A stretch of 64,000 nucleotides of DNA, taken from positions 39,302,797 through 39,366,796 of the forward strand of contig JASXTE010000004.1 of the NCBI GenBank assembly GCA_030280995.1, written 5' to 3'. This document shows positions 4,857 to 61,210 of this stretch, piece by piece. The notes beneath the pieces are model-generated. The model was not told where the DNA came from and did no database searches. It worked only from the letters and a program-made list of their open reading frames with translations. Position numbers and translations under genes: made by a program. The DNA is from Hemileia vastatrix (Eukaryota; Basidiomycota; Pucciniomycetes; Pucciniales; Zaghouaniaceae). The number at the start of each line of letters is the position of its first letter. The stretch's first letter is position 1.

Positions 4857-5166
4857 AGGCTCAACTTCAAAGGTCAAAATCTCAGCAACCACTGAACCTA
4901 ATTCAAACCTGTTTGTGGGAAGTGAAAGATATGCTTTAGTAGAATCTTCAGAAAAAGTAAATGTGATTTAAATAAACCTAACCCTAATTTGTTACATAAA
5001 AAAATTAAATAAATATTTAAATTGGGAAAAAAAAGGCTCAACTTTAATGGTCAATATCTCAGCAACCACTAAATCAAATTCAAATCTGTTTGTAGGAAAT
5101 GAAAGGTAGCCTTCAGGAGATACTTCAGTAAAAATAAAATTAGATTTGAATAAACCTAACCCTAAT
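4857..5166 (+). repeat. Tandem duplication inside the Harbinger-like element
   Basis: About 132 bp at 4857-4988 recurs at 5034-5166 with moderate divergence. Shared phrases include AAGGCTCAACTT, ATCTCAGCAACCACT and AATAAACCTAACCCTAATT. The second unit and the sequence after it, to about 5960, reappear at 21425-22265. The rest of the element (5170-6110) shows only A/G-rich non-coding DNA. Confidence 0.7.
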
Positions 5167-6116
5167 TCCGAGTCTGATTTTCAAAATTTTACAAAAACTT
5201 GAAAAGTGGTAATGAAGATGAGATCAAAAGGAGTTTTATAAGTTCACCATTATCCATATAAGAGTCATACATATATTTAAGTATGAAGTTTTCATAAAAG
5301 GAATGAGATATAATATAGGCATGAAAAAAAGGAGATGAAACTTACCTTTATTGAAAAGTAGGAAAAATAGAGTGAGAAAGATTGATGTTGGAATTGTGGG
5401 GAAATTGAATATGGAGTAAGTGAAATGCATAAAGAATGTGAAATGTATGTGTTTCAATGAAATGGAGCCAAAAAAAAGTGAAATAAGGGAAAGGGGGGAT
5501 AATGACAATGCCAAGGAGGGATGAAGAGTAGGGTGATGGAGCTAAAAAAGAAAGTAAAGAGGGAGAGAAAAAAAAGGTTAATTATACCATTGAAATCCAA
5601 AATAACCACTTACAAAAAAAATTTAGATAAAAAAATAAAATAAACAGAAAAGAACAAAAAAATTATAATTAGTAATCAAAAAATCAAAAAAAAGAATAAA
5701 GTGACTTACCTGGAGAGATGAGATGACAAAATGAATGAAACCAAATTGTTTGAGGGATGTTGGAGGAGAATAGGAAAAGGATATGAGGGATGAATGGAAA
5801 AAAAATCACTGACAAAATATGCAATTTCATGTTGAGCTGGTGAAAGAAAACCAATGAGCCATCCAAAAAAAAGATTTTCACCGTAAATTCCAAAAAAAAT
5901 GAATATGCAACAAACCAAAATACCAACCCGAGTGAATGAAGTACACAAAGAGGACATTTGGAGAGTACAAAATGGTATGGGAAAGAAAGGGATGATGTGG
6001 CCAACATGTGGTTTTGAAAAAAAAATCACAAAAAAAGTGCTGATTTGAGGTCAGAACTGACACCCATTTTTGAAATATGTGACTTTTTTGCAAAATTTAA
6101 GTGCTGATTTGGTTTG

Positions 6117-21389: not shown

Positions 21390-23016
21390 AGGGGTATTGC
21401 TAGAAGTACCCCCCCAATTTTTCTGTGGTGAAGGTAGCCTTCAGGAGAATCTTCAGTAAGAAGAACATTAGATTCAAATAAACCTAAACCTAATTCTGAG
21501 TCTGATTTTCAAAATTTTACAAAAACTTGAAAAGTGGTAATGGAGATGAGAACAAAAGGAGTTTAATAAGTTCACTGTTATCCAGATAAGATTCATACAT
21601 ATATTTAAGTATGAATTTTTTATAGAAGGAATGAGATATCATATAGACATGAAAAAAAGGAGATGAAACTTACCTTGATTGAAAAGTAGGAAAAATAGAG
21701 TGAGAAAGATTGATGTTGGAATTGTGGGGAAATTGAATATGGAGTAAGTGAAATACATAAAGAATGTGCAATGTATGTGTTTTAATAACATGGAACCTTA
21801 AAAAAGTGAAATAGGGTAAAGGGGGATAATGACCATTCTAAGGAGGGATGAAGAGTAGGGTGATGGAGCTAAAAAAGAAAGTAAAGAGGGAGAGAAAAAA
21901 AAGTTAATTTTACCATAAAATTCAAAAATAACCACTTACAAAAAAATTAGATACAAAAAAGGAAAAAAACAGAAAAAAAAAGAAAAAAACCATAATTAGC
22001 AATCAAAGAATCAAAAAAATGAATTATGTGACTTATATGGAGAGATGAGATGAGAAAATAAATGAAAGCAAATTGATTGAGTGATGTTTGAGGATTGGAA
22101 GATAGGATATGAGGGATGAATGAAGAAAAAGAAACAGTGAAAAATTATTCAATTGCAGAAAATATGAAATTTCATGTTGAGCTGGTGAATGATAAAAAAT
22201 GAGACATTCAGCGTAAATTCAAAATAAAAATGAATATGCAAATAAACAAAAACAACAAACCAAGTGAATAAAGCACACAAGCTGAAAATCTGGAGCATAT
22301 GAAGAAAAAATTAAAAGGGTTGTGTTTCAAAATGTTTCAGGGTGATTGCCATAATGACAGAGCCTATGCTGGTGGAAAGAATGTTTTGTAGTTCAAGGGA
22401 GGGGAGATCTAGTGCAGTTTTGGGATCCTCTTCTTCATAAAGATCATTGAAAAGACATATAAATAAAAGTGTCTTCCAAACCTGAGTCAGAATCTGAGTC
22501 AGCAGTTAAATTTGAAGTGATAGCATTCATAGCTGAGTGAAGTTTATTCCTAGTAAAGAGATGCTTTATTATTTATGGTAGAAGGTTTAGGTGATGAGTG
22601 GGAAGTGTAAATTCACCACCAAATGAGCAGGTGGGGTGTGTAGATAGAAAAAAATGTTATATGTTTGCTACCAAAATTAAGTATGATAGAGTGAAGAGAC
22701 ACATAAGGAGGAGAAAAAACTTTATGTGTTCGCCACCAAAATCAAGTAGAATAGAGTGAAGAGACACATAGAGATGGCATCTAAAATTATATGTCATGTG
22801 ATTTGCTTACAAATCAATCATGGATGTGATGAGTTTGGGTTCAGGAATTAGGAATAGAAATTGGGGTATAAGAGGTGGGATAATGCATTATTGTGCAATC
22901 TTTATCCACTAGCCCCAGGGCTAGTGGATAAGAATCATCCGCAATTAATAATGTCTGATCATGGAAAAAAAAATTCCTGATCCCTAATTGCAGATCTCTG
23001 AACATTGATACCCCCT
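21390..23016 (+). mobile_element. Relative of the Harbinger-associated repeat
   Basis: 21425-22265 is a diverged copy of 5108-5960 (shared phrases include GTAGCCTTCAGGAGA and AAACTTGAAAAGTGGTAATG). The end at about 23000-23016 (GATACCCCCT) resembles the right end of the 2708-6164 element (GACACCCCCT). The left edge may be AGGGGTAT at 21390. I found no matching target duplication. It contains a 14-bp perfect palindrome (22902-22915/22918-22931). No transposase is present, so it is probably a non-autonomous relative. Confidence 0.5.
22656..22780 (+). repeat. 63-bp tandem duplication
   Basis: Two adjacent units share CACCAAAATCAAGTA-like and ATAGAGTGAAGAGACACATA phrases, starting at about 22661 and 22724. 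Non-coding. Confidence 0.65.
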
Positions 23017-24989: not shown

Positions 24990-24994
24990 ATGTT

Positions 24995-26130
24995 TGTCAG
25001 CCAGGCTATTCCAGGAGTCCAGTAAATGATATATAAATTATAAAACCTTAAAGAGTGGGTAAGACTTGTATTTAATGAATATAACTTAATATTTTATTGC
25101 ATAATGAAACTATATAAGAATTTTATTATATACAAGTGTTACATTAAATTTATTGGTTATATATGTTTTTATATACAATTAAATTGAGCATAATATAATA
25201 TATTCTACAAATAATGGCGCATTTTTATGTATTTAATAATTATAAATTTATATTTAATTAATTGAAAAACATATATTATAATTATAAGTGTAAAATTGAT
25301 TTATAATATATTTAAATTAATTACTTAAATTTATATATTAAATAATACCTCTCATATGATACTAAACAATAATTAATGACGCTTCTTTTGACCCTTAATT
25401 GTGTTAGAAAAAACAAATAAATTAATTTGGACTAAATTGAGATTAATTGCTTGTTTTGTTGCGTCAAATTATTTTTTGTTTCACTTAAAATATCCTTAAA
25501 TCAGACTGTACCATCTGTTTGGAATTATTTTTCTCATAGTTCCTATGTTCCAATCTTGTTTAGTTATTCACTATTTTTACGAACTGATTTGGGAATTAAT
25601 GGCGGGGAAACTGGATTCTTAATTGGGGTTTTAATTAATTGTTTCATGTTTTTCTCTATCTTGTTATGTTTCATTTACTCTTTTGATATATTTGTTTTAT
25701 TCCATTCTAATCATTGTATTTACAAAGATAGTAGCGCTTCAGAGGACCCATTGCCTATAAAAGGGCCTTGGATAATCCCCTGTAGCCTCATCACTTATTA
25801 CACACTCAACAAATTAAATAACCATTTTATTACGTTTATATTTTTTTTATTAGTAATACAAATCTAATTTAAATTCTATACAACAAATCAAAGGTTGCTT
25901 TAAGTCTAATAGTAATTAAAATTGTTTGCCACGCAGTACCCTTACATTTAATAATATTATTATTAATAAAATCTAAGTTTTTGTCACCTCTCAAAGTTGC
26001 TCACCGTTGTCTCCCTCTCAAATAAATTATATATATATATTTGGTTTATTTCTTTATTTTCCTTTGTCCTCCTCCTTCTCTCCTCCTTTTTCTCCTATTT
26101 TTCTTACCTCTTCTAGACGACTGACCGACA
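24995..26130 (+). repeat. 5' LTR of Gypsy copy 1
   Basis: The LTR drives transcription and supplies R-U5. A TATA box, TATAAAA, lies at 25756-25762 in the context GCCTATAAAAGGGCC. It is bounded by TGTC...GACA. Confidence 0.93.
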
Positions 26131-26819: not shown

Positions 26820-27501
26820 ATGTCCAACAATTTGGCAGAAAAAATGGATAACATGCAAGTGGATGAAATAGAAATTGACTATGATGCTGACACTGTAAGT
26901 TCTTCTAAAGTTGGTCATAAAAAATCTTATGCTAACACAAAGAATTCACATACTGCAGGATGTGGAAATGACAGGAAATGCAAACAAACCAAACCCCCTT
27001 CCCCCAGTACCACAGAAGGAAGTAAAGCCTCTAGTGCCTCAAGAAGGTCTTCCAAAAGGCTTCAAAATAAAAAAGCTTCCTCTGCCACAACAAATCAGCA
27101 ATCTATCCAGTCATATAAAAGAGTTGAAGACAGAAAATATGACGTACAAAGCAAAGGTAGACACATTTTGGGATCAGGTCCAAGAACTCAGGAACCAGAT
27201 TCAGGCCCAGGCCCCTCCTCAGTTGCCTCCCAATCAGCCTCAGTTTCAGGCTCAACCTTCACAGCCACCCAGCTCAACCATCCAAAATCCAAATACTATG
27301 GAAGTAGAGCAATGGAAATGGGATTATCTAATGAGTCACTACCAACAGAATGTGCAAAACCCTCCTCATCATCAGCCTGGCCCATCCAGAACACCCAATT
27401 TCCATCCACCTCCTCATCCCTACCAACAAGGCAGGAGAAAGAAGGCCCAAGCACAATCCCAAACCCAGTCCCAGGGGAAGTTTCCTCCTCTGCCATGGTA
27501 A
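26820..27501 (+). CDS. ORF1: spliced accessory protein overprinting gag N-terminus (copy 1)
   Basis: Exon 1 (26820-26894, 25 codons) encodes an acidic N-terminus ending EIEIDYDADT. An intron with donor GTAAGT, branch TGCTAAC and acceptor ACTGCAG (26895-26958, 64 nt, phase 0) moves the reading into another frame. Exon 2 (26959-27501) encodes DVEMTGNANKPNP, a conserved basic patch (LPKGFKIKKLPLPQQ), a coiled coil (SSHIKELKTENMTYKAKVD), a Gln/Pro-rich linker, a WKWD motif, and a basic tail with GRRKK that ends in PW. The product has 205 residues. The stop overlaps the ATG of the gag-pol frame (ATGGTAA, 27495-27501). The same protein is recognisable in the diverged reverse-strand element. Function is unknown; a nucleic-acid-binding or assembly accessory role is inferred only from composition. 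Confidence 0.65.
26895..26958 (+). other. Intron of ORF1, copy 1
   Basis: GTAAGT donor, TGCTAACA branch and ACTGCAG acceptor; 64 nt. If it is retained, the frame runs on uninterrupted into gag-pol. If it is removed, translation shifts to the ORF1 frame. Confidence 0.7.
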
Positions 27502-30500
27502 GTAATTTGGTTGATAGTCACTTGGGTATGTTTTCTAATAAATCTTCTTCTGCAGGTAATATTATTGAACATGGTGAAAGAACAGTTAAACCTGTTAAAA
27601 GACAGCTTCCTGTAACTAGTAGCCCTATTGATGTAATTAGCAAATTGTCATTTGATGAACCTTTACATTTAACTTCTACATCTTTAATTAATCCTTCTCT
27701 TGCAATTAAAAATGATTCTGTTCCCCCTGAAATCTATACCTTAATTGAAAAAACTTCTGAGGAAATATTGAAAGATACCCTTGATTTTAATATTGTGAAA
27801 GACAAACATGTGAGAGATGTGTTAATCCATGAAAATGATAGATTAAATAATTTACACTTGCAATGTAAAGTGAGTTCTTCTGTACAAGATACAGCTTATT
27901 TAAAAATCAAAGAAACCTTGAATATTGTTCTTAGTCAACAAAAACAAATAAGAAGTGACCATAGAGCTATCTCAGATAGAAATATCAGTCTACATAAGAC
28001 CTTGAGTGAATTGAAACCCCTTATTGAGGAAAATTATTCATTCAAAAATGAAATAAAATCTCTGCAAAATGAGTTTAAGAAGCTAAAAAATGATTTCCAT
28101 GCACTAAGTACCAAACACTCAGCTTCTGAGGACAGAAATGTTCTATCTCTTGCAAAAGTAAATGACCAGATGTCTGAAATTCCAAGAATAAGAAACTATG
28201 TGTCTGGCCTACAGGAAAAGTTCTCAACCTTAAACATCAATAATGAATTAAATTAAATTTCTGTAAATAAGCTGCATAAAAATAAAGGGAAAAAACCTGA
28301 ACAAAGTTCATCCTTTCTTCCTCATATTTCAACCATTAAACAAACTGACAATGAGTCTGTAAAATCTTTTGCTACTAGCAAAAAATCTTGTGATGGTCAT
28401 GAACCAGCTGTTTCTGTAAATAATGAAATTTCTGAACACCTGGCTAAACTTGAGGAATTATTAATAATGAATAATTCAAACCATAAAGTGGACCATCCCA
28501 GTAGTCAGAAAAATTGGCCTAAGTTAGACCAATATCCTACCTTTGATGGTGATTCTTCCTCTGATTGGCAACACTTTATCCAGAGAATTGATAATTTAAA
28601 GAGATCTTATAAACTACCTGATGAGGAGATTGTTTCTAAGCTAATTTCTTTATTTTCCAATGTAGCCTTGATGTAATATGAATCTGTCCTCTTAGATAAC
28701 AATCATTATACATGGAATGATTGGAAATCCTTGATTGAGAATCAGTTTGGTGGTTCAAAATTCAGGTTAGCTCAGCAGAGACTGTATGAGAATACTAGAT
28801 ATGTATCCTCCTCTGTTGAAAAGCCCATTGTTTTTCTGATGAAAATAACTAAAATCCTTAGAGCAATTGATCCAAAGTTGGATTATGATATTTGGAGAGA
28901 TAAAATCTTGTATAAATTACCAAATTCTCTTAGGGATATGATTGTTGCTAGAACTGAGCATGTAAGGGAAAATTCTTCTTTCATTAATATCTGTAATGAA
29001 GTACTACTCAACCATAGATATGAACCAAAGAATTGCCTTAGTAAATCTTATAATGATCAGAATAAACCTTCTATAAAGCTCCCAGAAAAATCTGGTAAAC
29101 CCTCTGCCCCAGTTGCACCTAAAAAATATGCAACAAATACTTGTTATAAATGTAACAAACCGTGGCAGAAGGGTCATGTTTGTGACAAGAAAATTCATCT
29201 TGTTGAACAAAATGAAGACACTGATGAAGTTGAACTTGATGTCAATAATTCTTCCAGTGACTGTGAAAGTAATATCTCCTATGACAATGAATCTGTTAAA
29301 GATGTTTTAATGTTGGAACATGATGTCCATTATTTAAATAATATATCTGAAGATTGTGTATTGAATTTATCTTCAGTAGAAAATGCTGAGATAATTAAAG
29401 ATATTACTAACAATTCTATTCCTATATCCCCTTTAAAGGCACCTGTTATCATTAATGGTAAAAATGTTGATGTAGTTCTTGATTCTGGTGCTGGAGGAAG
29501 TGTAGTATCTGAAAAAGCTTTGGCTTCAGTGGATAAGGAATATTTGAGTAAATTATTGCCTATAACTTCTGAAAAATGGAGAGGGTATGGTTCTACCTTA
29601 TTTCCTATTGGCAAATACAAAACCTCTGTCTTCTTCAAATATAATGGTGGTTTTGTCAGAGCTATTTGTGAGTTTGTTGTCATGAAAAATGATAATTTGA
29701 GCAATTGGTTTATTATGGGAAATGATAGTTTAACCATGTTTGGTGTGAAACTGGACCCAGCAAATAATTGCTTTACCTTAGGAATGAATGGGAAAAGAAA
29801 ATTCAAAATTTCTTCTCCTAGACCTTCTGGGAATTTGTTGAAATCTTGTAACTCACTGACCCAATGTAAAGGTAGAACAACAACTGAAATGGAAGATTTA
29901 TTACATGAAATAAATACTTCTTCTTTTGGTGATCAGTTGACTTGTGAACAAAAAGATTCTATTGTTGCCTCTATTACCTATTTCCCTATGGCTTTTGCTC
30001 ATGGTTCTCATGTCTTGGGAATCGTTCAGGAAGAAATGAAAATTACCTTATCCTGTAATTTGAGTGATATTCCTCCTACCCTTAAGAAAAAACCATATCC
30101 TTCTTCTCCATCAAAAAGAAAAGATATTGAAGATAATATTGAAACATTATTGAAAATGAATATCATTGAGAAAGTGGATGTCACCCCTAAATATTGTGTC
30201 ATCTCCCCAGTCTTGAATTCGTATGAAAAAGATAAAGCTAGATTATGTGGAGATTACAGAGCTTTAAATACTTATACTGTTGATGATATTTATCCTTTAC
30301 CCAGAATTAATTCAATACATGCTACCTTGCAAGGTGCAAAATTTATTAGTTGTCTGGATGGTAATAAAGGTTATCATCAAGTTCCAGTTGAGAAAAATTC
30401 TCAAAATATTTTGCTTATTGCTACTCATATGGGAATATATAAGTATGTTAGGATGCCATTTGGCCCTAAAAATGCTCCTTCAGTTTTCCAGAAAGTCATG

Positions 30501-32987
30501 GATAACACTTTCCATCAAGAAATTATTGAAGGTTGGCTCATGGTTTATATTGATGATATTATTGTTTTTTCTAAAACTTTTGATGAACATATGATTCACT
30601 TGAATAGAGTTTTCCAAAAAATGGATGAAATCAATATGACCTTATCTTTAAAAAAGTGTAAATTTGGTTTTCAATCTTTGAAAGTCCTTGGCCATGTTGT
30701 GTCAGGCTTACAAATTTGTGTAGACCATAATAAAGTTGCTGCCATTCAAAATGTGAAAGCACCAACTTCTGTAAGAGAAATCCAAAGTTTTTTGGGTATG
30801 TGTGGCTATTATAGACAATATATTAAAAATTATCAGGTCATAGCCTTGCCTCTTACAAAACTAACCAGAAAAGATGTTGCTTTTCTCTGGAATAATGACT
30901 GTCAGAAAGCTTTTAATACATTGAAAAGTTGCTTAATGACAGCCCCTATATTGGCTCTTCCAGATTTTAACAAGCCATTTGTACTTTATACAGATGCTAG
31001 CTTTATTGGTCTGGGTGCTGCCCTTCACCAAAAGCAAATTATTAATGATAAATCCTCAGAGGTTGTAATTTGTTATATTTCAAGAACCTTAAGAAATAGT
31101 GAATTGAAATATGGTGCCACTCAATTGGAGTGCTTAGCAGTTGTTTGGGCTCTTGAGAAACTTCATTACTACTTGGATGACCAAAAATTTGAGTTGGTAA
31201 CTGACTGTAGTGCTGTGAAATCTCTCTTAAACCTCAAAACACCTAACAGACATATGTTCAGGTGGCAACTTGCTGTTCAAGAATACAGAGGAAGGATGAC
31301 TATTATCCATAGAGCTGGAAATGTTCACTCTAATGTTGATATGCTCTCCAGATTGCCTCTGCCAAATAATGACTCCAATCCTGCTTATGTACCTGAAGAT
31401 GATACTGTTCATATACATGGTATATTTATAGTTGATATGGAAGAAGAGTTATTACAGTTAATACTGGATTCATATGATAAAGATTCTGACTTAAATAAAT
31501 TAGTTACTATTTTGAATGATCCTTAGAATTCTTCAATTTAAGCATTAATAAAAACTCTTCCTGCAAAGTACCAAAATGCTTTAAATAAAGGAAAGTTTTC
31601 TATTTAAGATGGTTATATATATTATAGAAGGAAGCTTACCAATGTAATTGTTATTCCTCCTTCAATGAAAGAAACTATCCTCAAACTTTGTCATGATGAC
31701 ATATTAGCTGGTCATTTTGATCTTGAAAAAACATTGATTAGAATCAAAAACACTGCATGGTGGGCTAATATGTCTGAAGACACAAAATTATATGTTGAAT
31801 CTTGTGATTCCTGCCAAAAATCTAAAAGGTTAACAGGTAAGAGAGCAGGGTTATTACAACATATTGAAGCACCTAGTGCTCCCTGGCAAATCATTAATAT
31901 GGATTTTGTCACTGGTCTTCCTGTTGCAGGTAAAGACAGCTTTAACTCTTGTTGGGTAATAGTGGATAGATTCACAAAAATGTGCAAATTTATTCCAACC
32001 CACAAAGATGTATCCACCAAAGAATTAGCTTTCTTATGGTGGTCTTACATGTTTAATATTATTGGTTTTCCAAAAGCCATTATCTCTGATAGGGATCCAA
32101 AATTCACTTCTGAGTTTTGGACCTCTTTGATGGATATTTGTGGCTGTGAGTTAAAATTGTCTACAGCTCACCATCCTCAGACTGATGGTCTAGCTGAAAG
32201 AATGATTCAAACTCTGGAAGATATGATTAGAAGGTATTGTGCCTTTGGTTTAGAATATAAAGACAATGACAGATTTACTCATGATTGGGTCACTCTTTTG
32301 CCTGGTCTTGAATTTGCATATAATAGCACTGTTCATTCTGTCACTGAGAAAAAGCCTTTTGAGCTTTGGTTAGGTTATGTCCCAAACACTCCTGCTCAGA
32401 TTCTCAATAATAAATTACCTAAGTTGGAACTACACCCTGGTGTAAAATCTTTTATGCAAATGCAACAGCTATGCAGAAAACATGCTCAGAGTTGTATTGA
32501 TAAAGCATTTGAATATGAAAAGAAAAGATGGGATAAATCCCATAAAGAGTACACATTTAACAAGGGTGATGAAGTGTTGATCTCTACTGTCCATTTCAAT
32601 TTACAAGGTAACCACAAATTAAAAGATCCTTTTGTAGGACCATTTGTTGTTAAAAGAATGGTTGGTGATAATGCAGTAGAAGTTGTATTGTATTCTCCAT
32701 ATGATAGGAAACATCCTGTCTTTCCCATTTCTTTGCTTAAACCTTATACTTCCAACAGTGAATTATTTCCAAAAAGAAGAGGAAGACCTAAGAAGAACCC
32801 TCAGGAAGTCACAGAAACAGCAGAAATTGATAAAATTCTCAATGATAGAATTATCACTTCTGAAAGAGGTACTGAATATTTATTGAGATATAAGAACAAA
32901 TCATCTGAACATGATGCATGGATACCTGGCAAGGAAATTTCAAATCTGCCTGCTCTGTTGAAAAAATACAAAAAGAAAAAATCTTAG
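27495..32987 (+). pseudogene. Gag-Pol of Gypsy copy 1, five nonsense codons
   Basis: One frame, open also upstream to ATG 26820 if unspliced, encodes in order: a coiled-coil-rich gag; a zinc knuckle CYKCNKPWQKGHVC (29142-29183); an aspartic protease DSGAGG (about 29481); reverse transcriptase with YIDD (about 30547); RNase H (LYTDAS); an integrase with an HHCC finger and HHPQTDGLAER; an AT-hook-like RRGRPKK; and a C-terminal chromodomain. Compared with copy 2, stops have replaced sense codons at 28254 (GAG to TAA), 28674 (TGG to TAA), 31524 (AAG to TAG), 31539 (CAA to TAA) and 31605 (GAA to TAA). No frameshift is needed to read it. It cannot make full-length Pol. Confidence 0.92.
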
Positions 32988-33022: not shown

Positions 33023-34158
33023 TGTCAGCCAGGCTATTCCAGGAGTCCAGTAAATGATATATAAATTATAAAACCTTAAAGAGTGGGTAAGACTTTTATT
33101 TAATGAATATAACTTAATATTTTATTGCATAATGAAATTATATAAGAATTTTATTATATACAAGTGTTACATTAAATTTATTGGTTATATATATTTTTAT
33201 ATACAATTAAATTGAGCATAATATAATATATTCTACAAATAATGGAGCATTTTTATGTATTTAATAATTATAAATTTATATTTAATTAATTGAAAAACAT
33301 ATATTATAATTATAAGTGTAAAATTGATTTATAATATATTTAAATTAATTACTTAAATTTATATATTAAATAATACCTCTCATATGATACTAAACAATAA
33401 TTAATGACGCTTCTTTTGACCCTTAATTGTGTTAGAAAAAACAAATAAATTAATTTGGACTAAATTGAGATTAATTGCTTGTTTTGTTGCGTCAAATTAT
33501 TTTTTGTTTCACTTAAAATATCCTTAAATCAGACTGTACCATCTGTTTGGAATTATTTTTCTCATATTTCCTATGTTCCAATCTTGTTTAGTTATTCACT
33601 ATTTTTACTTACTGATTTGGGAATTAATGGCGGGGAAACTGGATTCTTAATTGGGATTTTAATTAATTGTTTCATGTTTTTCTCTACATTGTTATGTTTC
33701 ATTTACTCTTTTGATATATTTGTTTTATTCCATTCTAATCATTGTATTTACAAAGATAGTAGCGCTTCAGAGGACCCATTGCCTATAAAAGGGCCTTGGA
33801 TAATCCCCTGTAGCCTCATCACTTATTACACACTCAACAAATTAAATAACCATTTTATTATGTTTATATTTTTTTTATTAGTAATACAAATCTAATTTAA
33901 ATTCTATACAACAAATCAAAGGTTTCTTTAAGTCTAATAGTAATTAAAATTGTTTGCCGCGCAGTACCCTTACATTTAATAATATTATTATTAATAAAAT
34001 CTAAGTTTTTGTCACCTCTCAAAGTTGCTCACCGTTGTCTCCCTCTCAAATAAATTATATATATATTTTTGGTTTATTTCTTTATTTTCCTTTGTCCTCC
34101 TCCTTCTCTCCTCCTTTTTCTCCTATTTTTCTTACCTCTTCTAGACGACTGACCGACA
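33023..34158 (+). repeat. 3' LTR of Gypsy copy 1
   Basis: Same length (1136 bp) as the 5' LTR, with about 1% differences by eye (for example TTACTTACTG against TTACGAACTG). TATA box at 33784. Confidence 0.93.
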
Positions 34159-34171
34159 ATGTTACTCCTAC

Positions 34172-35337: not shown

Positions 35338-35860
35338 CCTACCCCCTTTTGTGTTTTTTCTTGGTCTCAGTAGAATAAATTTTACACTAGATATGTAGTG
35401 CTTCTGTTTTTTATGTGTGTGCCCCTATTTAACTTCATTTCATATTTCATTTTTTTACACTTCTTAAATATCTTGTATTAGAATACCTTCTCTTCCCTTA
35501 TTTTATCTCCCCCAATAATAATAATAATAATAATAATAGTCATAATAAAAAATAGAAATCTACTAAGTGTTTAGAAGATACCTACACTACTTCAAACCAC
35601 TATACATAAAGAACAGTGACTTGAATGAAAAGAAAATAAAAATTAATAAATTAATAAAAATAGGACACTTAAAATATTGTTCAAGTATCTATATTCTAAC
35701 AGATCATCCAGGAAAGCTTGTGGTGGAAGGTAGTTGTTTATTATCCCTTTCTTCTACAAAAAAAATGAATAAAAAATTAAAAATTAAATTAAATTAAATT
35801 AGATCATTTTTATTTTTATTTTAATTTATACATTCATTAATATTAATATTTGTATTTTAA
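35338..35860. other. Non-coding, short (AAT)n microsatellite
   Basis: An (AATA/AAT)n run lies at about 35511-35538. No supportable gene. Confidence 0.5.
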
Positions 35861-36877
35861 TTTATGTTTATATTTGTATTTGTATTTTTATTTTCCTTTA
35901 CAATTTTAATTTTAATTTTAACTTTATTTTTATTTTTATTTTTATTTATATTTTTATTTTTATTTTTATTTTTATTTTTATTTTTATTTTTATTTTTATT
36001 TTTATTTTTATTTTTATTTTTATTTTTATTTTTATTTTTATTTTTATTTTTATTTTTATTTTTATTTTTATTTTTATTTTTATTTTTATTTTTATTTTTA
36101 TTTTTATTTTTATTTTTATTTTTATTTTTATTTTTATTTTTATTCTTATTTTTATTTTTATATTTTTTTTTATTTTTATTTTTATTTTTATTTTTATTTT
36201 TACTTTTATTTTTATTTTTATTTTGGTTTTTGTTTTTTTTATTTTTATTTTTATTATTATTTTTATTTTTATTTTTATTTTTATTTTTATTTTTATTTTT
36301 ATTTTTATTTTTATTTTTATTTTTATTTTTATTTTTATTTTTATTTTTATTTTTTTTATTTATATTTTTATTTTTATTTTTATTTCTATTTCTATTTTTA
36401 GATTTTTTTATTTTAATTTTTATTTCAATTTAAATTTTAATATTATTTTTATTTTTATTTTTTAACTTTATGTAAATTTTTATTTTTATTAAACTTTAAT
36501 TTTTTTTGATTTTTTTTTTGATTTTTATAATGATTTTTTTTGCTCTTATTACATTTTTTATTTTTTAATATTTAATTTTTTTAATTATTAACATTTATTA
36601 TGTATTATATTTATTTTTTTGTTTTATTTTTTTGAATGATTTTTTTTTTTGTATTTTTTTTAAATTTTTTTTAACTTTTTTAAATTTTTATTATTTTATT
36701 TTTATTTTTTATATTTTATTTTTTAAATTTTTATTATTTGAATTTATTTTTAATTTCAAACTCTTTATTATATTTCTTTTTCTTTTGAATTTTTTTTATT
36801 ATTAATGATTAATTTTCTAAATTTAAAAAAAAAAAATTTAATTTTTTAAATTTTATTTATATTATAAATTTATTTTT
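35861..36877 (+). repeat. (TTTTTA)n satellite grading into T-rich low-complexity DNA
   Basis: Roughly 35920-36360 is an almost pure hexamer TTTTTA repeat on the plus strand. The sequence then becomes irregular T-rich DNA almost free of G and C. The 189-codon Phe/Leu alternation it encodes is an artefact. Gypsy copy 2 is inserted at its right edge. Confidence 0.9.
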
Positions 36878-38718: not shown

Positions 38719-39400
38719 ATGTCCAACAATTTGACAGAAAAAATGGATAACATGCAAGTGGATGAGATAGAAATTGACTATGATGCTGACACTGTAAGTT
38801 CTTCTAAAGTTGGTCATAAAAAATCTTATGCTAACACAAAGAATTCACATACTGCAGGATGTGGAAATGACAGGAAATGCAAACAAACCAAACCCCCTTC
38901 CCCCAGTACCACAGAAGGAAGTAAAGCCTCTAGTGCCTCAAGAAGGTCTTCCAAAAGGCTTCAAAATAAAAAAGCTTCCTCTGCCACAACAAATCAGCAA
39001 CCTATCCAGTCATATAAAAGAGTTGAAGACAGAAAATATGACGTACAAAGCAAAGGTAGACACATTGTGGGATCAGGTCCAAGAACTCAGGAACCAGATT
39101 CAGGCCCAGGCCCCTCCTCAATTGCCTCCCAATCAGCTTCAATTTCAGGCTCAACCTTCACAGCCACCCAGCTCAACCATCCAAAATCCAAATACTATGG
39201 AAGTAGAGCAATGGAAATGGGATTATCTAATGAGTCACTACCAACAGAATGTGCAACACCCTCCTCATCATCAGCCTGGCCCATCCAGAACACCCAATTT
39301 CCATCCAGCTCCTCATCCCTACCAACAAAGCAGGAGAAAGAAGGCCCAAGCACAATCCCAAACCCACTCCCAGGGGAAGTTTCCTCCTCTGCCATGGTAA
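38719..39400 (+). CDS. ORF1: spliced accessory protein overprinting gag N-terminus (copy 2)
   Basis: Same organisation as copy 1: exon 1 38719-38793, intron 38794-38857 (64 nt, identical splice signals), exon 2 38858-39400, giving 205 residues. Only a few substitutions separate the two copies (for example TFWDQ against TLWDQ). The acidic N-terminus, KIKKLP patch, coiled coil, WKWD motif, basic GPSRTPN...RRKK region and final PW are all intact. The stop overlaps ATG 39394 of the gag-pol frame. Because this copy is young and ORF1 is unbroken while gag-pol has a stop, this is the best source for studying the product. Confidence 0.65.
38794..38857 (+). other. Intron of ORF1, copy 2
   Basis: GTAAGT...TGCTAACA...ACTGCAG, 64 nt, phase 0. 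Same signals as in copy 1. Confidence 0.7.
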
Positions 39401-42400
39401 GTAATTTGGTTGATAGTCACTTGGGTATGTTTTCAAATAAATCTTCTTCTGCAGGTAATATTATTGAACATGGTGAAAGAACAGTTAAACCTGTTAAAAG
39501 ATAGCTTCCTGTAACTAGTAGCCCTATTGATGTAATTAGCAAATTGTCATTTGATGAACCTTTACATTTAACTTCTACATCTTTAATTAATCCTTCTCTT
39601 GCAATTAAAAATGATTCTGTTCCCCCTGAAATCTATACCTTAATTGAAAAAACTTCTGAGGAAATATTGAAAGATACCCTTGATTTTAATATTGTGAAAG
39701 ACAAACATGTGAGAGATGTGTTAATCCATGAAAATGATAGATTAAATAATTTACACTTGCAATGTAAAGTGAGTTCTTCTGTACAAGATACAGCTTATTT
39801 AAAAATCAAAGAAACCTTGAATATTGTTCTTAGTCAACAAAAACAAATAAGAAGTGACCATAGAGCTATCTCAGATAGAAATATCAGTCTACATAAGACC
39901 TTGAGTGAATTGAAACCCCTTATTGAGGAAAATTATTCATTCAAAAATGAAATAAAATCTCTGCAAAATGAGTTTAAGAAGCTAAAAAATGATTTCCATG
40001 CACTAAGTACCAAGCACTCAGTTTCTGAGGACAGAAATGTTCTATCTCTTGCAAAAGTAAATGACCAAATGTCTGAAATTCCAAGAATAAGAAACTATGT
40101 GTCTGACCTACAGGAAAAGTTCTCAACCTTAACCATCAATAATGAATTAAATGAGATTTCTGCAAATAAGCTGCATAAAAATAAAGGGAAAAAACCTGAA
40201 CAAAGTTCATCCTTTCTTCCTCATATTTCAACCATTAAACAAACTGACAATGAGTCTGTAAAATCTTTTGCTACTAGCAAAAAATCTTGTGATGGTCATG
40301 CACCAGCTGTTTCTGTAAATAATGAAATTTCTGAACACCTGGCTAAACTTCAGGAATTATTAATAATGAATAATTCAAACCAAAAAGTGGACCATCCCAG
40401 TAGTCAGAAAAATTGGCCTAAGTTAGACCAATATCCTACCTTTGATGGTGATTCTTCCTCTGATTGGCAACACTTTATCCAGAGAATTGATAATTTAAAG
40501 AGATCTTATAAACTACCTGATGAGGAGATTGTTTCTAAGCTAATTTATTTATTTTCCAATGTAGCCTTGATGTGGTATGAATCTGTCCTCTTAGATAACA
40601 ATCATTATACATGGAATGATTGGAAATCCTTGATTGAGAATCAGTTTGGTGGTTCAAAATTCAGGTTAGCTCAGCAGAGACTGTATGAGAATACTAGATA
40701 TGTATCCTCCTCTGTTGAAAAGCCCATTGTTTTTCTGATGAAAATAACTAAAATCCTTAGAGCAATTGATCCAAAGATGGATTATGATATTTGGAGAGAT
40801 AAAATCTTGTATAAATTACCAAATTCTCTTAGGGATTTGATTGTTGCTAGAACTGAGCATGTAAGGGAAAATTCTTCTTTCATTAATATCTGTAATGAAG
40901 TACTACTCAACCATAGATATGAACCAAAGAATTACCTTAGCAAATCTTATAATGATCAGAATAAACCTTCTATAAAGCTCCCAGAAAAATCTGGTAAACC
41001 CTCTGCCCCAGTTGCACCTAAAAAATATGCAACAAATACTTGTTATAAATGTAACAAACCGTGGCAGAAGGGTCATGTTTGTGACAAGAAAATTCATCTT
41101 GTTGAACAAAATGAAGACACTGATGAAGTTGAACTTGATGTCAATAATTCTTCCAGTGACTGTGAAAGTAATATCTCCTATGACAATGAATCTGTTAAAG
41201 ATGTTTTAATGTTGGAACATGATGTCCATTATTTAAATAATATATCTGAAGATTGTGTATTGAATTTATCTTCAGTAGAAAATGCTGAGATAATTAAAGA
41301 TATTACTAACAATTCTATTCCTATATCCCCTTTAAAGGCACCTGTTATCATTAATGGTAAAAATGTTGATGTAGTTCTTGATTCTGGTGCTGGAGGAAGT
41401 GTAGTATCTGAAAAAGCTTTGGCTTCAGTGGATAAGGAATATTTGAGTAAATTATTGCCTATAACTTCTGAAAAATGGAGAGGGTATGGTTCTACCTTAT
41501 TCCCTATTGGCAAATACAAAACCTCTGTATTCTTCAAATATAATGGTGGTTTTGTCAGAGCTATTTGTGAGTTTGTTGTCATGAAAAATGATAATTTGAG
41601 CAATTGGTTTATTATGGGAAATGATATTTTAACCATGTTTGGTGTGAAACTGGACCCAGCAAATAATTGCTTTACCTTAGGAATGAATGGGAAAAGAAAA
41701 TTCAAAATTTCTTCTCCTAAACCTTCTGGGCATTTGTTGAAATCTTGTAACTCACTGACCCAATGTAAAGGTAGAACAACAACTGAAATGGATGATTTAT
41801 TACATGAAATAAATACCGCTTCTTTTGGTGATCATTTGACTAATGAACAAAAGGATTCTATTGTTGCCTCTATTACCTCCTTCCCTATGGCTTTTGCTCA
41901 TGGTTCTCATGTCTTGGGAATTGTTCAGGAAGAGATGAAAATTACCTTATCCTGTAATTTGAGTGATATTCCTCCTTCCCTTAAGAAAAAACCATATCCT
42001 GCTTCTCCATCAAAAAGAAAAGATATTGTAGATAATATTGAAACATTATTGAAAATGAATATCATTGAGAAAGTTAATGTCACCCCCAAATATTGTGTCA
42101 TCTCCCCAGTCTTGATTTCATATGAAAAAGATAAAGCTAGATTATGTGGAGATTACAGAGCTTTAAATACTTATACTGTTGATGATATTTATCCTTTACC
42201 CAGAATTAATTCAATACATGCTACCTTGCAAGGTGCAAAATTTATTAGTTGTCTGGATGGTAATAAAGGTTATCATCAAGTTCCAGTTGAGAAAAATTCT
42301 CAAAATATTTTGCTTATTGCTACTCATATGGGAATATATAAGTATGTTAGGATGCCATTTGGCCCTAAAAATGCTCCTTCAGTTTTCCAGAAAGTCATGG

Positions 42401-44886
42401 ATAACACTTTCCATCAAGAAATTATTGAAGGTTGGCTCATGGTTTATATTGATGATATTATTGTTTTTTCTAAAACTTTTGATGAACATATGATTCACTT
42501 GAATAGAGTTTTCCAAAAAATGGATGAAATCAATATGACCTTATCTTTAAAAAAGTGTAAATTTGGTTTTCAATCTTTGAAAGTCCTTGGCCATGTTGTG
42601 TCAGGCTTACAAATTTGTGTAGACCATAATAAAGTTGCTGCCATTCAAAATGTTAAAGCACCAACTTCTGTAAGAGAAATCCAAAGTTTTTTGGGTATGT
42701 GTGGCTATTATAGACAATATATTATAAATTATCAGGTCATAGCCTTGCCTCTTACAAAACTAACCAGAAAAGATGTTGCTTTTCTCTGGAATGATGACTG
42801 TCAGAAAGCTTTTAATACATTGAAAAATTGCTTAATGACAGCCCCTATATTGGCTCTCCCAGATTTTAACAAGCCATTTGTACTTTATACAGATGCTAGC
42901 TTTATTGGTCTGGGTGCTGCCCTTCACCAAAAGCAAATTATTAATGATAAATCCTCAGAGGTTGTAATTTGTTATATTTCAAGAACCTTAAGAAATAGTG
43001 AATTGAAATATGGTGCCACTCAATTGGAGTGCTTAGCAGTTGTTTGGGCTCTTGAGAAACTTCATTACTACTTGGATGACCAAAAATTTGAGTTGGTAAC
43101 TGACTGTAGTGCTGTGAAATCTCTATTAAACCTCAAAACACCTAACAGACATATGTTCAGGTGGCAACTTGCTGTTCAGGAATACAGAGGAAGGATGAAT
43201 ATTATCCACAGAGCTGGAAATGTTCACTCTAATGTTGATATGCTCTCCAGATTGCCTCTGCCAAATAATGACTCCAATCCTGCTTATGTACCTGAGGATG
43301 ACACTGTTCATATACATGGTATATTTATAGTTGATATGGAAGAAGAGTTATTACAGTTAATACTGGATTCATATGATAAAAATTCTGACTTAAATAAATT
43401 AGTTACTATTTTGAATGATCCTAAGAATGCTTCAATTCAAGCATTAATAAAAACTCTTCCTGCAAAATACCAAAATGCTTTAAATGAAGGAAAGTTTTCT
43501 ATTGAAGATGGTTATATTTATTATAGAAGGAAGCTTACCAATGTAATTGTTATTCCTCCTTCAATGAAAGAAACTATCCTCAAACTTTGTCATGATGACA
43601 TATTAGCTGGTCATTTTGATCTTGAAAAAACATTGATTAGAATCAAAAACACTGCATGGTGGGCTAATATGTCTGAAGACACAAAATTATATGTTGAATC
43701 TTGTGATTCCTGCCAAAAATCTAAAAGGTTAAGAGGTAAGAGAGCAGGGTTATTACAAAATATTGAAGCACCTAGTGCTCCCTGGCAAATCATTAATATG
43801 GATTTTGTCACTGGTCTTCCTGTTGCAGGTAAAGACAGCTTTAACTCTTGTTGGGTAATAGTTGATAGATTCACAAAAATGTGCAAATTTATTCCAACCC
43901 ACAAAGATGTATCCACCAAAGAATTAGCTTTCTTATGGTGGTCTTACATGTTTAATATTATTGGTTTTCCAAAAGCCATTATCTCTGATAGGGATCCAAA
44001 ATTCACTTCTGAGTTTTGGACCTCTTTGATGGATATTTGTGGCTGTGAGTTAAAATTGTCTACAGCTCACCATCCTCAGACTGATGGTCTAGCTGAAAGA
44101 ATGATTCAAACTCTGGAAGATATGATTAGAAGGTATTGTGCCTTTGGTTTAGAATATAAAGACAATGACAGATTTACTCATGATTGGGTCACTCTTTTGC
44201 CTGGTATTGAATTTGCATATAATAGCACTGTTCATTCTGTCACTGAGAAAAAGCCTTTTGAGCTTTGGTTAGGTTATGTCCCAAACACTCCTGCTCAGAT
44301 TCTCAATAATAAATTACCTAAGTTGGAACTACACCCTGGTGTAAAATCTTTTATGCAAATGCAACAGCTATGCAGAAAACATGCTCAGAGTTGTATTGAT
44401 AAAGCATTTGAATATGAAAAGAAAAGATGGGATAAATCCCATAAAGAATACACATTTAACAAGGGTGATGAAGTGTTGATCTCTACTGTCCATTTCAATT
44501 TACAAGGTAACCACAAATTAAAAGATCCTTTTGTAGGACCATTTGTTGTTAAAAGAATGGTTGGTGATAATGCAGTAGAAGTTGTATTGTATTCTCCATA
44601 TGATAGGAAACATCCTGTCTTTCCCATTTCTTTGCTTAAACCTTATACTTCCAACAGTGACTTATTTCCAAAAAGAAGAGGAAGACCTAAGAAGAACCCT
44701 CAGGAAGTCACAGAAACAGCAGAAATTGATAAAATTCTCAATGATAGAATTATCACTTCTGAAAGAGGTACTGAATATTTATTGAGATATAAGAACAAAT
44801 CATCTGAACATGATGCATGGATACCTGGCAAAGAAATTTCAAATCTGCCTGCTCTGTTGAAAAAATACAAAAAGAAAAAATCTTAG
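39394..44886 (+). CDS. Gag-Pol polyprotein of Gypsy copy 2 (one premature TAG)
   Basis: The frame starts at ATG 39394 (CCATGG context) or, unspliced, at 38719. A TAG at 39502-39504 replaces the CAG of copy 1, and from 39544 there are 1780 uninterrupted codons. Residue positions from 39544: coiled-coil gag about 1-200; capsid-like about 300-450; zinc knuckle about 500-514; protease DSGAGG about 613; RT about 830-1000 with YIDD about 968; RNase H LYTDAS about 1114; integrase HHCC about 1348-1393; catalytic region MDFVTG about 1419, SDRDP about 1481 and AER about 1516; AT-hook-like RRGRPKK about 1710; chromodomain about 1727-1780. This is the order of a Ty3/Gypsy chromovirus. It copies RNA into DNA and integrates it. 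The chromodomain is known in this group to bind histone marks and steer integration. Confidence 0.93.
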
Positions 44887-52000: not shown

Positions 52001-54484
52001 AATGAAAGTTTCATTTCTTCCTTAACTAATCCTAGTTCATGTGACCCATGAGAAAAGGCCATAGGAAAAAATTTTATCAATTTAATGATGGAATCTTTAT
52101 CCTCACCAGAAAGTTGTTCTCCAAAAAAATTATTGTCAATTTCAGACATAAGAGCATGCATTTCCTTTGTAGACCTTCCTTTATATTGAATCACAGAATT
52201 ACATGTGTTCAAATTTGGTTTTAAAATTTTTTTGGGGGAGGAAATCTTAAATTTTCTCTTCCCATTCATCCCCATTGTGAAGCATTGGTTTAAAGGATCT
52301 AATTTTATGCCATATTTGGCTAAAATGTCATTTCCTATGATAGACCAAATGCTTAAATTATCATTTTTCATGACAACAAAATCACAAATAGCTCTTACAA
52401 AACCATGGTTATATTTAAAAAATACTGTGGCTTTTTATTTACCAATGGGGGACAAAACAGAGCCATAACCTCTCCAATTTTCAGGAATGATAGGCAGAAG
52501 TTTTGATTTATAGTCTTGATCCACTGAAGCAAGTGCTTTTTCAGATACTACACTTCCTCCAGCTCCAGAATCCAGAACAACTTCAATGCTGGTTCCATTG
52601 ATCAAGACTGGTGCTTTGAGAGGGGCAATAACAATTGAGCTATTCTCAATGTTCCTTATGATCTCAGCATCCTCAACTGTAGATAAATTATTATTATCAA
52701 TATCAATAGTATTTAAATAATGAATATCTTCTTCCAGCATCAAGATTTCATGTTGAGATTCATATGAAATATTTCTGGCACAATCACTTGAGGTATCATC
52801 CAGTGCTATTGTGTCATCAGCATGCTCCTCAGTTTGTTCAACAAGATTTATCCTCTTGTCACAAACATGGCCTTTCTGCCAAGGCTTGTTGCACTTGAAG
52901 CAAGTGTTTGTTGCATACTTTTTTGGTACAACAGGGGAAGAAGTTTTACCAACCTTTTCCAGAGGTTTCTGTTGGTAAGTGAAGGATTTCTCCAAAGGGG
53001 TCCTAGGAATGAATCTTCTGGCATCATACTTGTTGTTTAGAAGGATCTCATTGCAAGTATTAATGAAAGAAGAAGGTTCTCTAGAGAACTCAGTCCTAGC
53101 CACTATCAAGTCTCTTAAAGACTTTGGCAATTTATAAAGGATCCTGTTCTTCCATAACTCAAACTCCATATTTGGGTCCATTTCCCTCAAGATTTTTACA
53201 AGTTTCATTAAGAACTCAATAGGTTTATCAGTAGAAGAGCTATATCTACTTTCTTCATACTTCCTTTGTTGAGCCATTCTTAAATTGGAGCCACCAAATT
53301 GTGCTTTAATCAAATTTTTCCAATCTTCCTATGAGTAGTCATTCCTATCCAGGAGAACAGATTCATACCACATTAGGGCTAAATTGGTAAACAAAAAAAT
53401 TAACTTAGACACAATTTCCTCATCTGGGAGTTTGTAAGAATTTTTTAAGTTATCAATTCTGCAAATGAATTGCTGCCAATCAGAGGAAGAATCACCATCA
53501 AATATTGGGTACTGGTCAAGTTTTGGCCAATTCTTTTGATTTGAAGGAGCCTCCTTAGTATTAGCTTGTTTCTGAGTTAGAAGCAGCTGTAACTTTTCCA
53601 ATTGTGCAGTAATCTCATTTTTTAATACTTCTGTTGAAGATCCTGGTGCATCATCAATTTTTAATGGAAACTCGGTGGTATCAACACGCATTTCTGAATC
53701 TAATTTTACTTTTGATGAACTAGAAACAGGTAAACTTGGAGCATCCTGTACCATATGTTCCTTCAAAGAAGTTTCAGAATATCTTTGATCATTAAACAAT
53801 GAATTCAATTTTTCTTCAATGGTTGTTAGTCTGGTTTTCACTCTTGGAAGACTAGATAAACTCTCATTGATTGTTGCAAAAGATAACTAGGTTTTATTTT
53901 GAAAAGATGAATAATGATCACTCAATCTTTTCAGTTTCATTTTATCTACCTCTAGCTCCAGGCAACAGGTAGATACAGTATCTTGAAGTTTAGACAAATC
54001 ATTTTTGATATTTTGCCATAAAGCAACTTTCTTTTCATGGGTTGCTTTGTAATGAAACAAATCATCAGAAACTCTCTGTAACTCACTCCTCAATGCTTGA
54101 TAACCCTGTTCAGTTAACAAAATATTATATTTCTGAGTAAATTGCATGTTGTTCATTATATGATTTTTTAGCAATAATATCCCTCAAATATTCATCATTA
54201 ATGTTAGCTACATCTGGAGTGTTTCTCAATAAGGAAACAGAGTAACTTTCCAGATTCTCATAAAACTCAGGCTCAAGTTTTTCATCAATAATAGCCATAT
54301 CAGTATTTATCATTGAAGTAGCAATTAGAACTAAAGGATTAGATACATTTGAAATTTAAGCAATTTTTCTACTGTTCTTAGCCTCTACAGGTCTCACAGT
54401 CTCATCTCCTCTTCCAGAATTACCTGAAGGAACTGAATCAGTTAGAAGAAATGGTACTTGAGATTCAATAGAGGGGCTTACCAT
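49060..54484 (-). pseudogene. Gag-Pol of the reverse Gypsy element, multiply broken
   Basis: Fragments in order along the reverse strand: gag coiled-coil pieces (54313-53887); capsid-like with SDWQQF (53841-53329 and 53313 onward); zinc knuckle CFKCNKPWQKGHVC (about 52865-52905); protease DSGAGG (about 52570); reverse transcriptase with YIDD (52371-51271); RNase H LYTDAS (51258-50842); integrase with HHCC and HHPQTDGLAER (50470-49652); then RRGRPKK (about 49265) and a decayed chromodomain. At least eight stops or frameshifts interrupt it. The start codon aligned with copies 1 and 2 is at 54484 (CCATGG). Similarity to copies 1 and 2 is strong in RT and integrase and weak in gag, so it is a sister family. 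Confidence 0.9.
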
Positions 54485-55096
54485 GGCTTGGACAAGACTT
54501 GGATGTGGTTGTTCTTTCTCCTTCTTCCTCCTTGATAGGAATGAGGAGGTGTTGTATTGAGCTGATTTGTTCTTGAAGGACCTGCCTGAGGTGCTTGTTG
54601 CTGTTGCTGTTGGTACAGATAATCCCACTGGGTGTTCAGCCGATCCCACTTCCACTTTGAGACTTCGACCTTTTCTTGTTGCTGGGGGGCCAGTTGTGGA
54701 AGGGCTTTTGGAGGAGGAGGTTTCTTCTTCTCTTGAAGAAAAGACTCTATGTTTCTTACCTTGTCTTCTAGACAGTCTATTCTTGACCTCAGCTTGAGGT
54801 TTTCTGTCCTCAACTCCTTGATGCGAGTAGAGATTTTTTACCTGCTGGTTTATAGGCATCTTTTTTATCTTTAAGCCTTTGGGAAGCTCTTCTGGAGGTT
54901 TATTGAAGGATTTTTTTCCTGGGCATTCGTCTCTGCCAGAATCTCCACTTCCTCCATTTCCACATCCTGATTGGTTCAATGATTTATTAATTTGAGCTAA
55001 TTGTGTATTTAAAGGAGAACTCACAGAAGTAGCCTCATCATAATCAATCAGATCCAGTTCATCTTCACGTTCAGCAGAAAACCCTTGGTAAGTCAT
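54478..55096 (-). pseudogene. ORF1 of the reverse Gypsy element
   Basis: Exon 1 (55096-55025, 24 codons) encodes an acidic stretch ending DLIDYDEATS. The intron (55024-54967, 58 nt, phase 0) has a GTGAGT donor and TCAG acceptor. Exon 2 (54966-54478) is 489 nt, exactly in frame from DVEM to the final KPW stop. It carries KELRTENLKLRSRID (coiled coil), VEVSKWKWDRL, GPSRTN, GGRRRK and PW, matching ORF1 of copies 1 and 2. The LPKGLKIKKMP patch is displaced into another frame by two compensating indels, so the present copy is broken there. The stop overlaps ATG 54484 as ATGGTAA. Confidence 0.6.
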
Positions 55097-60644: not shown

Positions 60645-61210
60645 GATGTCAATTAAGACATGCACAAACAGCGCCAAATCACACAACAAAGGCCCCTGCC
60701 AATGTTGGAAGACCACAACATCACACAGTGAATATTTGACTGCATTTAACAAATATTTTGAAGCAATCAAACGGCAAGGAATTGTTTTTGATCAAAAAGT
60801 CTTTAAAGCTCTCATATCACATGCATTACTACCATCAACCCTGAAAGACCTTTATGTTGATTTATGTGTTGCTCTGGACAATTGCACAGACTCAAAGTTG
60901 GTCACTTATGAAGATTTCTGCCAACTTATGCCAAGTTTAGTCCAAAATAGGGTTGATTGTGAAGGCATTTCATCTACACCTACTGCATCCTTATCTGTTG
61001 AACCTTCCCTCCATGCTGCAACTCAACCTCAGAGACAAACAGATTCTTACAGGCCTCCTGGTGCACATTAAAATTGTCATGAATGCCAGTCCACTGCTCA
61101 TGTTGTGGCACATTGTCCTTACAACCCTCATTCTGTAAATTTCTCTGCTAAACTATACATTATGCATGAATGTGCTACTGCTTATGCTTCTGATCCTAAT
61201 GCAAGGAACA

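Follow-up and report, generated by a model that had tools for sequence, protein, structure and literature searches.

We report here on a long terminal repeat (LTR) retrotransposon of the Ty3/Gypsy chromovirus type, found in a 64,000-nucleotide (nt) stretch of the Hemileia vastatrix genome (contig JASXTE010000004.1, positions 39,302,797 to 39,366,796; hereafter the window) as two forward copies, A and B, and a diverged reverse copy, R. Very probably, this element has one start codon and two products that are chosen by splicing. RNA that keeps both introns would be translated from the ATG at 26820 across the two introns and the exon 2 between them, continuing into Gag-Pol, with the approximately 180 exon 2 residues in the gag frame serving as a low-complexity spacer whose only strong constraint would be the lack of stops. 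Removal of intron 1 would shift the frame after codon 25 and give open reading frame 1 (ORF1), a 205-residue coiled-coil protein. In some RNAs intron 2 would be removed also, so that the ORF1 stop re-forms and Gag-Pol falls out of frame. The parts of the three copies are as follows.

26820-26894 (+): copy A exon 1, 25 codons common to ORF1 and Gag-Pol; from the copy A sequence
26895-26958 (+): copy A intron 1, 64 nt, GTAAGT..TGCTAACA..CTGCAG, gag frame open; exactly absent in 17 genomic places
26959-27497 (+): copy A exon 2, under selection in the ORF1 frame, with a gag frame that stays open yet drifts; from selection and stop tests
27498-27555 (+): copy A intron 2, 58 nt, GTAAGT..TTCTAAT..CTGCAG; exactly absent in 28 genomic places
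27556-28256 (+): copy A gag frame downstream of intron 2, under protein-level selection, with the copy A stop at 28254-28256; from selection tests
38719-38793 (+): copy B exon 1; from sequence
38794-38857 (+): copy B intron 1; from sequence
38858-39396 (+): copy B exon 2, ORF1 open to the PW stop; from sequence
39397-39454 (+): copy B intron 2; from sequence only
55025-55096 (-): copy R exon 1, 24 codons; from sequence
54967-55024 (-): copy R intron 1, 58 nt, GTGAGT..CAG; exactly absent in 25 R-family places
54482-54966 (-): copy R exon 2, with two frameshifts that disrupt ORF1; from sequence
54424-54481 (-): copy R intron 2, 58 nt, GTAAGC..TTCTAAC..TTCAG; exactly absent in nine R-family places

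Much of this layout agrees with the original prediction: a 64-nt intron with full signals at 26895-26958 after a 25-codon exon, a spliced frame of 180 further codons to a PW stop in copy A (the same is true of copy B, 38719-39400), an unspliced gag frame open across intron 1 and exon 2, and a 58-nt, phase 0 intron at 54967-55024 in copy R. The single intron described there is real, but the element has two, and the one at 27498-27555 had been overlooked. The intron lengths are all 1 mod 3 (64/58 in A and 58/58 in R), and the ORF1 stop TAA (27499-27501) lies within intron 2, where the stop of TGG TAA belongs to the donor GTAAGT.

Copy R fared differently. Its spliced frame, expected to run to the same PW stop, contains four stops no more than 43 codons past the splice and two frameshifts, and this copy was rejected as proof of an open ORF1. 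Of the motifs thought to be shared between the alternative frames of the two families, KIKK is present in copy R but located in the gag frame. Among ten R-family relatives that were fetched, ORF1 is intact to PW in L087 and L094 and has stops in L091 and L095; the other six gave no ORF1 reading under a search pattern that demanded the exact acceptor context. The gag frame is stop-free in three of the ten (L087, L088 and L094).

Since a retrotransposon with spliced introns is expected to leave intron-less copies, the single genome containing the window (747.6 Mb, 791 contigs) was searched for them. For intron 1 the pattern was the spliced join of exons 1 and 2 (29 bases, at most three mismatches), and for intron 2 that of exons 2 and 3 (30 bases), each with the reversed pattern as control. 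Intron 1 is exactly absent in 17 genomic places (11 exact matches) and intron 2 in 28 (19 exact matches), and both controls gave none. In the R family, 25 places lack intron 1 (one exact match) and nine lack intron 2 (five exact), again with no control matches. In an alignment of 65 copies, made without duplicates and without L063 (5'-truncated near 27140), both introns are kept in 28, only intron 1 is lost in nine, only intron 2 in 20, and both are lost in eight; 37 of the 65 were selected by their junction and the rest as best matches to copy A, so that these counts are not frequencies. Gaps of at least 20 nt across 26820-28400 number 46 in these copies, namely 17 at 26895-26958, 28 at intron 2 and only one elsewhere.

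Paired LTRs and identical 5-bp flanks were recognized in six of 12 spliced copies examined (L030-L034 and L036), which shows that reverse transcription and integration have acted on spliced RNA. In L037 and L039 both LTR ends are present but their flanks differ, and for L029, L040, L041 and L042 recovery of the two ends was incomplete. A tree built without the introns requires at least 11 changes for intron 1 and at least 14 for intron 2, with losses scattered over it, although only nine of its 62 inner branches are strong, 32 have a support under 80%, and L063 is counted there as a keeper of intron 1. Some intron-less matches lie close together (e.g., L038 and L044, 8.2 kb apart) or belong to one subfamily, and the events are thus fewer than the places. 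Judged from the integrated copies, both introns are spliced in both families. The splicing arrangement is therefore common to A and R, as had been proposed, and absence of splicing, named beforehand as grounds for refutation, is the opposite of what was found, with retrocopies taking the place of RNA-sequencing reads.

Several spliced copies have unusual surroundings. Two pairs are in the same orientation, L038/L044 (C579) at 8.2 kb and L043 (C338) at 7.9 kb. In L037 (C579) an apparent inner end of another copy precedes the 5' LTR, as if tandem elements share an LTR. L102 and L106 (C756 and C348; by pattern also C757 and C768) represent an intron 1-less subfamily with an altered start region and an ORF1 stop after GRRR, and intron-less copies of this subfamily may have been copied onward in trans.

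Which frame is selected over exon 2 was examined by the dN/dS ratio w (Nei-Gojobori method). In all eight diverged A-like copies w is 0.13-0.31 in the ORF1 frame, 0.96-2.68 in the gag frame and 0.97-2.94 in the third frame. Among 11 cross-family pairs (A, L087, L094, L097, L100 and L101), ORF1 w is 0.08-0.29 in ten and saturated in one, with 0.92-2.43 in the gag frame and 0.81-3.03 in the third. The differences that separate A from 13 further copies in exon 2 were also sorted by their effect in both frames, with transitions assumed to be three times likelier per change. Differences that are silent in ORF1 and change gag exceed those that change ORF1 and are silent in gag (expected 0.234:0.269), with p ≤ 0.008 in eight of 12 copies; the test is not significant for L046, L058 and copy B, which have few differences, or for the 5'-truncated L063. 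L043.2, a near-twin of L043.1, was included in the sorting and left out of the significance tests and of w.

ORF1 is thus under strong purifying selection in exon 2: here the spliced frame encodes the protein, and the gag frame is left to drift. The greater conservation of the spliced frame had been foreseen, and an ORF1 w near 1, which was to count against it, is the reverse of the 0.08-0.31 obtained. The notion that this region codes in two frames stands insofar as the gag frame is kept open, but its amino acids drift much like those of an unused frame. On either side of exon 2 the situation changes: exon 1 has w of 0-0.10 in seven of nine diverged copies (0.93 in the truncated L063 and 1.26 in L066), and just downstream of intron 2 the gag frame has w of 0.25-0.38 in seven of nine copies (0.59 and 0.60 in L062 and L063).

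It might be argued that ORF1 is a by-product, only the gag frame being coding and the introns being leftovers or cryptic sites. When codons are shuffled with the gag-frame protein preserved, ORF1 does stay open by chance in 6-7% of cases, so that this reciprocal test is weak. However, an ORF1 w of 0.08-0.31 beside a gag w of about 1 or above, together with the excess of ORF1-silent, gag-changing differences, makes this explanation extremely improbable, and ORF1 as a chance by-product was rejected on the w and difference tests.

Although its residues drift, the gag frame over exon 2 lacks stops. Synonymous shuffling of ORF1 predicts about seven gag-frame stops, and there are none in A, L087 and L094 (no such outcome in 5000 shuffles each; in repeats, 1/20000 and 3/20000 shuffles for A and 1/5000 for L087 reached zero) nor in L097, L098 and L101 (P ≤ 0.0016). 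No comparable lack was found in the third frame (11-13 stops against 8-10 expected) or in six pol stretches, at p 0.05. Among 70 aligned A-type rows, duplicates included, decay has placed exon 2 stops in ORF1 in 11 and in the gag frame in nine. The gag frame is open through the introns too, which is weak evidence, having a 22-33% chance for each. Over exon 2 the gag-frame protein is 52% S/T/P/G/Q. Because a frame that is open but drifting resembles a translated spacer, we infer translation from the ATG at 26820 through unspliced RNA, and Gag-Pol would accordingly be made from intron-retaining RNA.

Two other routes to Gag-Pol were considered. In one, ORF1 comes from spliced RNA and Gag-Pol restarts at the ATG at 27495, which overlaps the ORF1 stop (GCC ATG GTAAG), in the manner of stop-restart retroelements, and the upstream gag frame is irrelevant. 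The window A and R copies both carry GCCATGGTAAG, by eye a good start context over a stop, methionine occupies the position in nine of ten R relatives, and protein-level gag selection is seen only downstream. Nevertheless, the ATG is replaced by CTG or TTG in L097, L098, L100 and L101 and by a leucine, judged by translation, in L099, so that it is missing in five of the ten copies of a second R set. The zero upstream gag stops against seven expected are unneeded by a restart, and removal of intron 2 would destroy the restart frame. Restarting at 27495 was rejected as a general mechanism for want of the ATG in these five copies, and as an account of the element it appears improbable. In the other route, both introns are constitutively removed host-type introns, Gag-Pol arises by ribosomal frameshifting from ORF1, and unspliced RNA is only packaged. 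Tf1/sushi elements outside the fission yeasts mostly use a -1 shift between Gag and Pol (PMC10085805). This route, however, does not account for a gag frame that is open all the way from intron 1 to the end of intron 2 or for the maintained 1 mod 3 intron lengths (64/58 and 58/58), and no shared slippery site was noticed near the ORF1 end by eye, without a formal test; we regard it as very unlikely.

The exon after intron 2 begins with GTAA in 65 of 66 A-like copies (28 of which were found with a pattern containing GTAA; copy A has GTAAT directly after the intron), and splicing out the intron thereby restores the PW stop. In L097, L098 and L100, whose donors are GTACGT or GCAAGC, unspliced RNA has no stop at this point, and one arises only by removal of intron 2. 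The intron is 58 nt long in A and in L097, L098, L100 and L101. Once it is removed, the gag sequence that follows is no longer in frame, so that translation of Gag-Pol from the common start depends on retention of both introns.

Several observations weigh against the proposed arrangement or limit it. The evidence is genomic DNA alone, from copies of mixed decay. A-type ORF1 ends without removal of intron 2, and L101 lacks GTAA after the intron (GTTAT) and has its stop only when unspliced. L100 has two gag-frame stops (P 0.0068), and the gag frames of A and R align above shuffles (score 146; highest of 200 shuffles, 77); the ORF1 frames do so with 234 against 68, and both alignments also take in exon 1 and the downstream gag. 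The selection tests are not independent, as A-like copies share branches, and the R-type copies used for w were picked for an ORF1 readable to PW (two of the ten relatives first described and four of the second R set of ten; the other six of the second set were unused owing to ORF1 stops, truncation or being a twin, and L098 entered the stop test only). Spliced RNA ends up in new copies, so that coding and genomic RNA are not seen to be strictly divided. Finally, one protein search with exon 2 returned 18 candidates with no homologue at E 1e-3, and comparison with Pfam gave seven weak matches, all under the cut-offs. With no homologue and no Pfam family, the function of ORF1 is a guess by analogy.

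The ORF1 protein of copy A has 205 residues, an isoelectric point of 7.0 and a PW end. It contains a leucine-zipper-like coiled coil (11 of 13 a/d positions hydrophobic in one heptad register), Q/P-rich stretches and, by eye, the basic patches KIKK and RRKK. An AlphaFold model of exon 2 only, made without an alignment, has a mean predicted local distance difference test score (pLDDT) of 61.4 and helices at 42-84 and 113-133, of which the former alone is fairly confident (ten-residue block means of 66-88). Downstream, a protein search with gag 27495-28256 returned 840 candidates and no homologue.

The words 'regulated' and 'accessory', used of ORF1 in the original prediction, are inferences. 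There is close to an even chance that the same two-product splicing serves some other role, e.g., a copy-number or assembly control factor, for which Ty1 p22 offers a comparison, a Gag co-factor or a silencing suppressor. A Q/P-rich, 205-residue coiled coil of no known family is compatible with many roles, and nothing specific stands against these; however, an intron-retaining genomic RNA together with a protein made only from spliced RNA most resembles export regulators. The lentiviral Rev protein, too, has spliced RNA as its sole source. An early regulatory role for ORF1, aiding the nuclear exit of unspliced genomic RNA like Rev and the CERV protein of Cer1, is a tentative proposal with appreciable odds against it. 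More doubtful is the fuller version, in which a regulator of the Rev/CERV type is overprinted for nearly its whole length on a Gag spacer that is dispensable, and intron 2, over the ORF1 stop, is a second gate that closes Gag-Pol. If true, a retrotransposon, probably of a fungus, would have acquired 'complex retrovirus' regulation independently.

In the influenza NS1/NEP and M1/M2 genes a few shared codons are followed by splicing into an overlapping frame, and both frames encode functional proteins. This situation is different from ours, which belongs to another type of replicon and has one frame of the overlap resembling spacer. The nearest precedent is CERV of the Caenorhabditis elegans Ty3/Gypsy element Cer1, which comes from spliced RNA and is needed for export of unspliced RNA (PMC10309623, where Rev is also named). 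It is encoded by five exons, of which exons 1-3 are in the gag frame and exon 5 lies downstream of pol (PMC10309623). The likeness includes a spliced mRNA, gag-frame exon(s) that are shared, one exon overlapping gag in another frame, a leucine-zipper-like motif, a basic motif like a nuclear localization signal (in ORF1, RRKK and KIKK) and a lack of homologues reported outside its own group. ORF1 has in common with CERV a spliced RNA sharing the gag start and a coding exon outside the gag frame, which in ORF1 is under selection. It differs in having two coding exons, nearly all overprinted within the gag end, and in belonging to an element with a chromodomain. Moreover, the function of CERV was shown, whereas that of ORF1 is likened by analogy, and that ORF1 works like CERV or Rev can be said at best in this sense. 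The remark that no described chromovirus has this arrangement thus needs qualification, since a spliced, partly frame-shifted protein has a Ty3/Gypsy precedent in Cer1 (PMC10309623); in the accessible portion of the open-licence literature, a spliced overprinted arrangement was not found described in a fungal chromovirus.

In BARE1 of barley and EVADE of Arabidopsis, splicing yields an RNA for Gag alone (PMC3735527 and PMC12786077). These also have an intron within a single Gag-Pol frame (of 104 nt in BARE1; in the protease region in EVADE), the splicing of which shifts the frame and ends Gag-Pol. However, their spliced RNA makes Gag and ours a non-Gag protein: translation of the spliced RNA departs from the gag frame beyond codon 25, and protein-level gag selection lies downstream. 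Attempts to amplify DNA copies of spliced BARE RNA in barley failed (PMC3735527), whereas dozens of integrated spliced copies exist in the genome studied here.

From DNA alone, then, splicing of an LTR retrotransposon is recognized that yields an overprinted protein subject to purifying selection, and the record comprises thousands of candidate copies. The element offers a way to test how a retrotransposon saves its intron-bearing genomic RNA under normal splicing, a question that Rev and CERV answer elsewhere. As a natural example of overprinting it is cleanly asymmetric, one frame being selected as protein and the other mainly for lack of stops. Annotation that masks such elements would overlook the ORF1 protein.

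The assignment to the Ty3/Gypsy chromoviruses is based on the Pol order, the chromodomain, TG..CA LTRs and a 5-bp target duplication, all of which are present. The features concerned are the following.

24995-26130 (+): copy A 5' LTR, TG..CA, 98.8% identity to 33023-34158
33023-34158 (+): copy A 3' LTR, pair of 24995-26130
39505-44886 (+): copy B Gag-Pol open frame with reverse transcriptase, RNase H, integrase and chromodomain; from open frames and Pfam

The duplicated target of copy A is ATGTT (24990-24994 and again 34159-34163), and the LTR pair of copy B has 98.0% identity. Upstream of 39505 the frame of copy B is closed by a stop at 39502-39504. Its Pol shows the Gypsy order in Pfam (RVT_1 877-1031, RT_RNaseH 1120-1227, Integrase_H2C2 1350-1407 and rve 1424-1524, the last with 29.1 bits under a cut-off of 32.6), and the chromodomain (PF00385, residues 1740-1791) lies at the integrase C-terminus with 31.3 bits against a cut-off of 25.1. 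A canonical CX2CX4HX4C zinc knuckle was not found in Gag, where CYKCNKPWQKGHVC, seen by eye, has a different spacing. Such a knuckle is not obligatory, being absent from fission yeast elements (PMC10085805). A DNA search with 26820-27560 gave 1390 first-look candidates, and all 40 that were scored cover 741 of 741 bases at 99-100%; the query from copy R gave 4051, of which 40 were scored. The R family has about 50% identity to A in ORF1.

Gag-Pol is interrupted in both forward copies (26820-32987 and 38719-44886), yet ORF1 is open in each; in copy A, the ends of open frames include 28256 and 31526. The stretch 35669-36465, which separates copies A and B, contains a long TTTATA-type simple repeat, and the long 'ORFs' in several of its frames resemble composition artefacts. 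Elsewhere in the window, 61139-63418 (+) holds Copia-type Pol fragments (Pol_BBD, gag_pre-integrs and RVT_2) in two open frames, and 5103-5767 and 21431-22094 are direct repeats of 83-93% identity with 16.3 kb between them.

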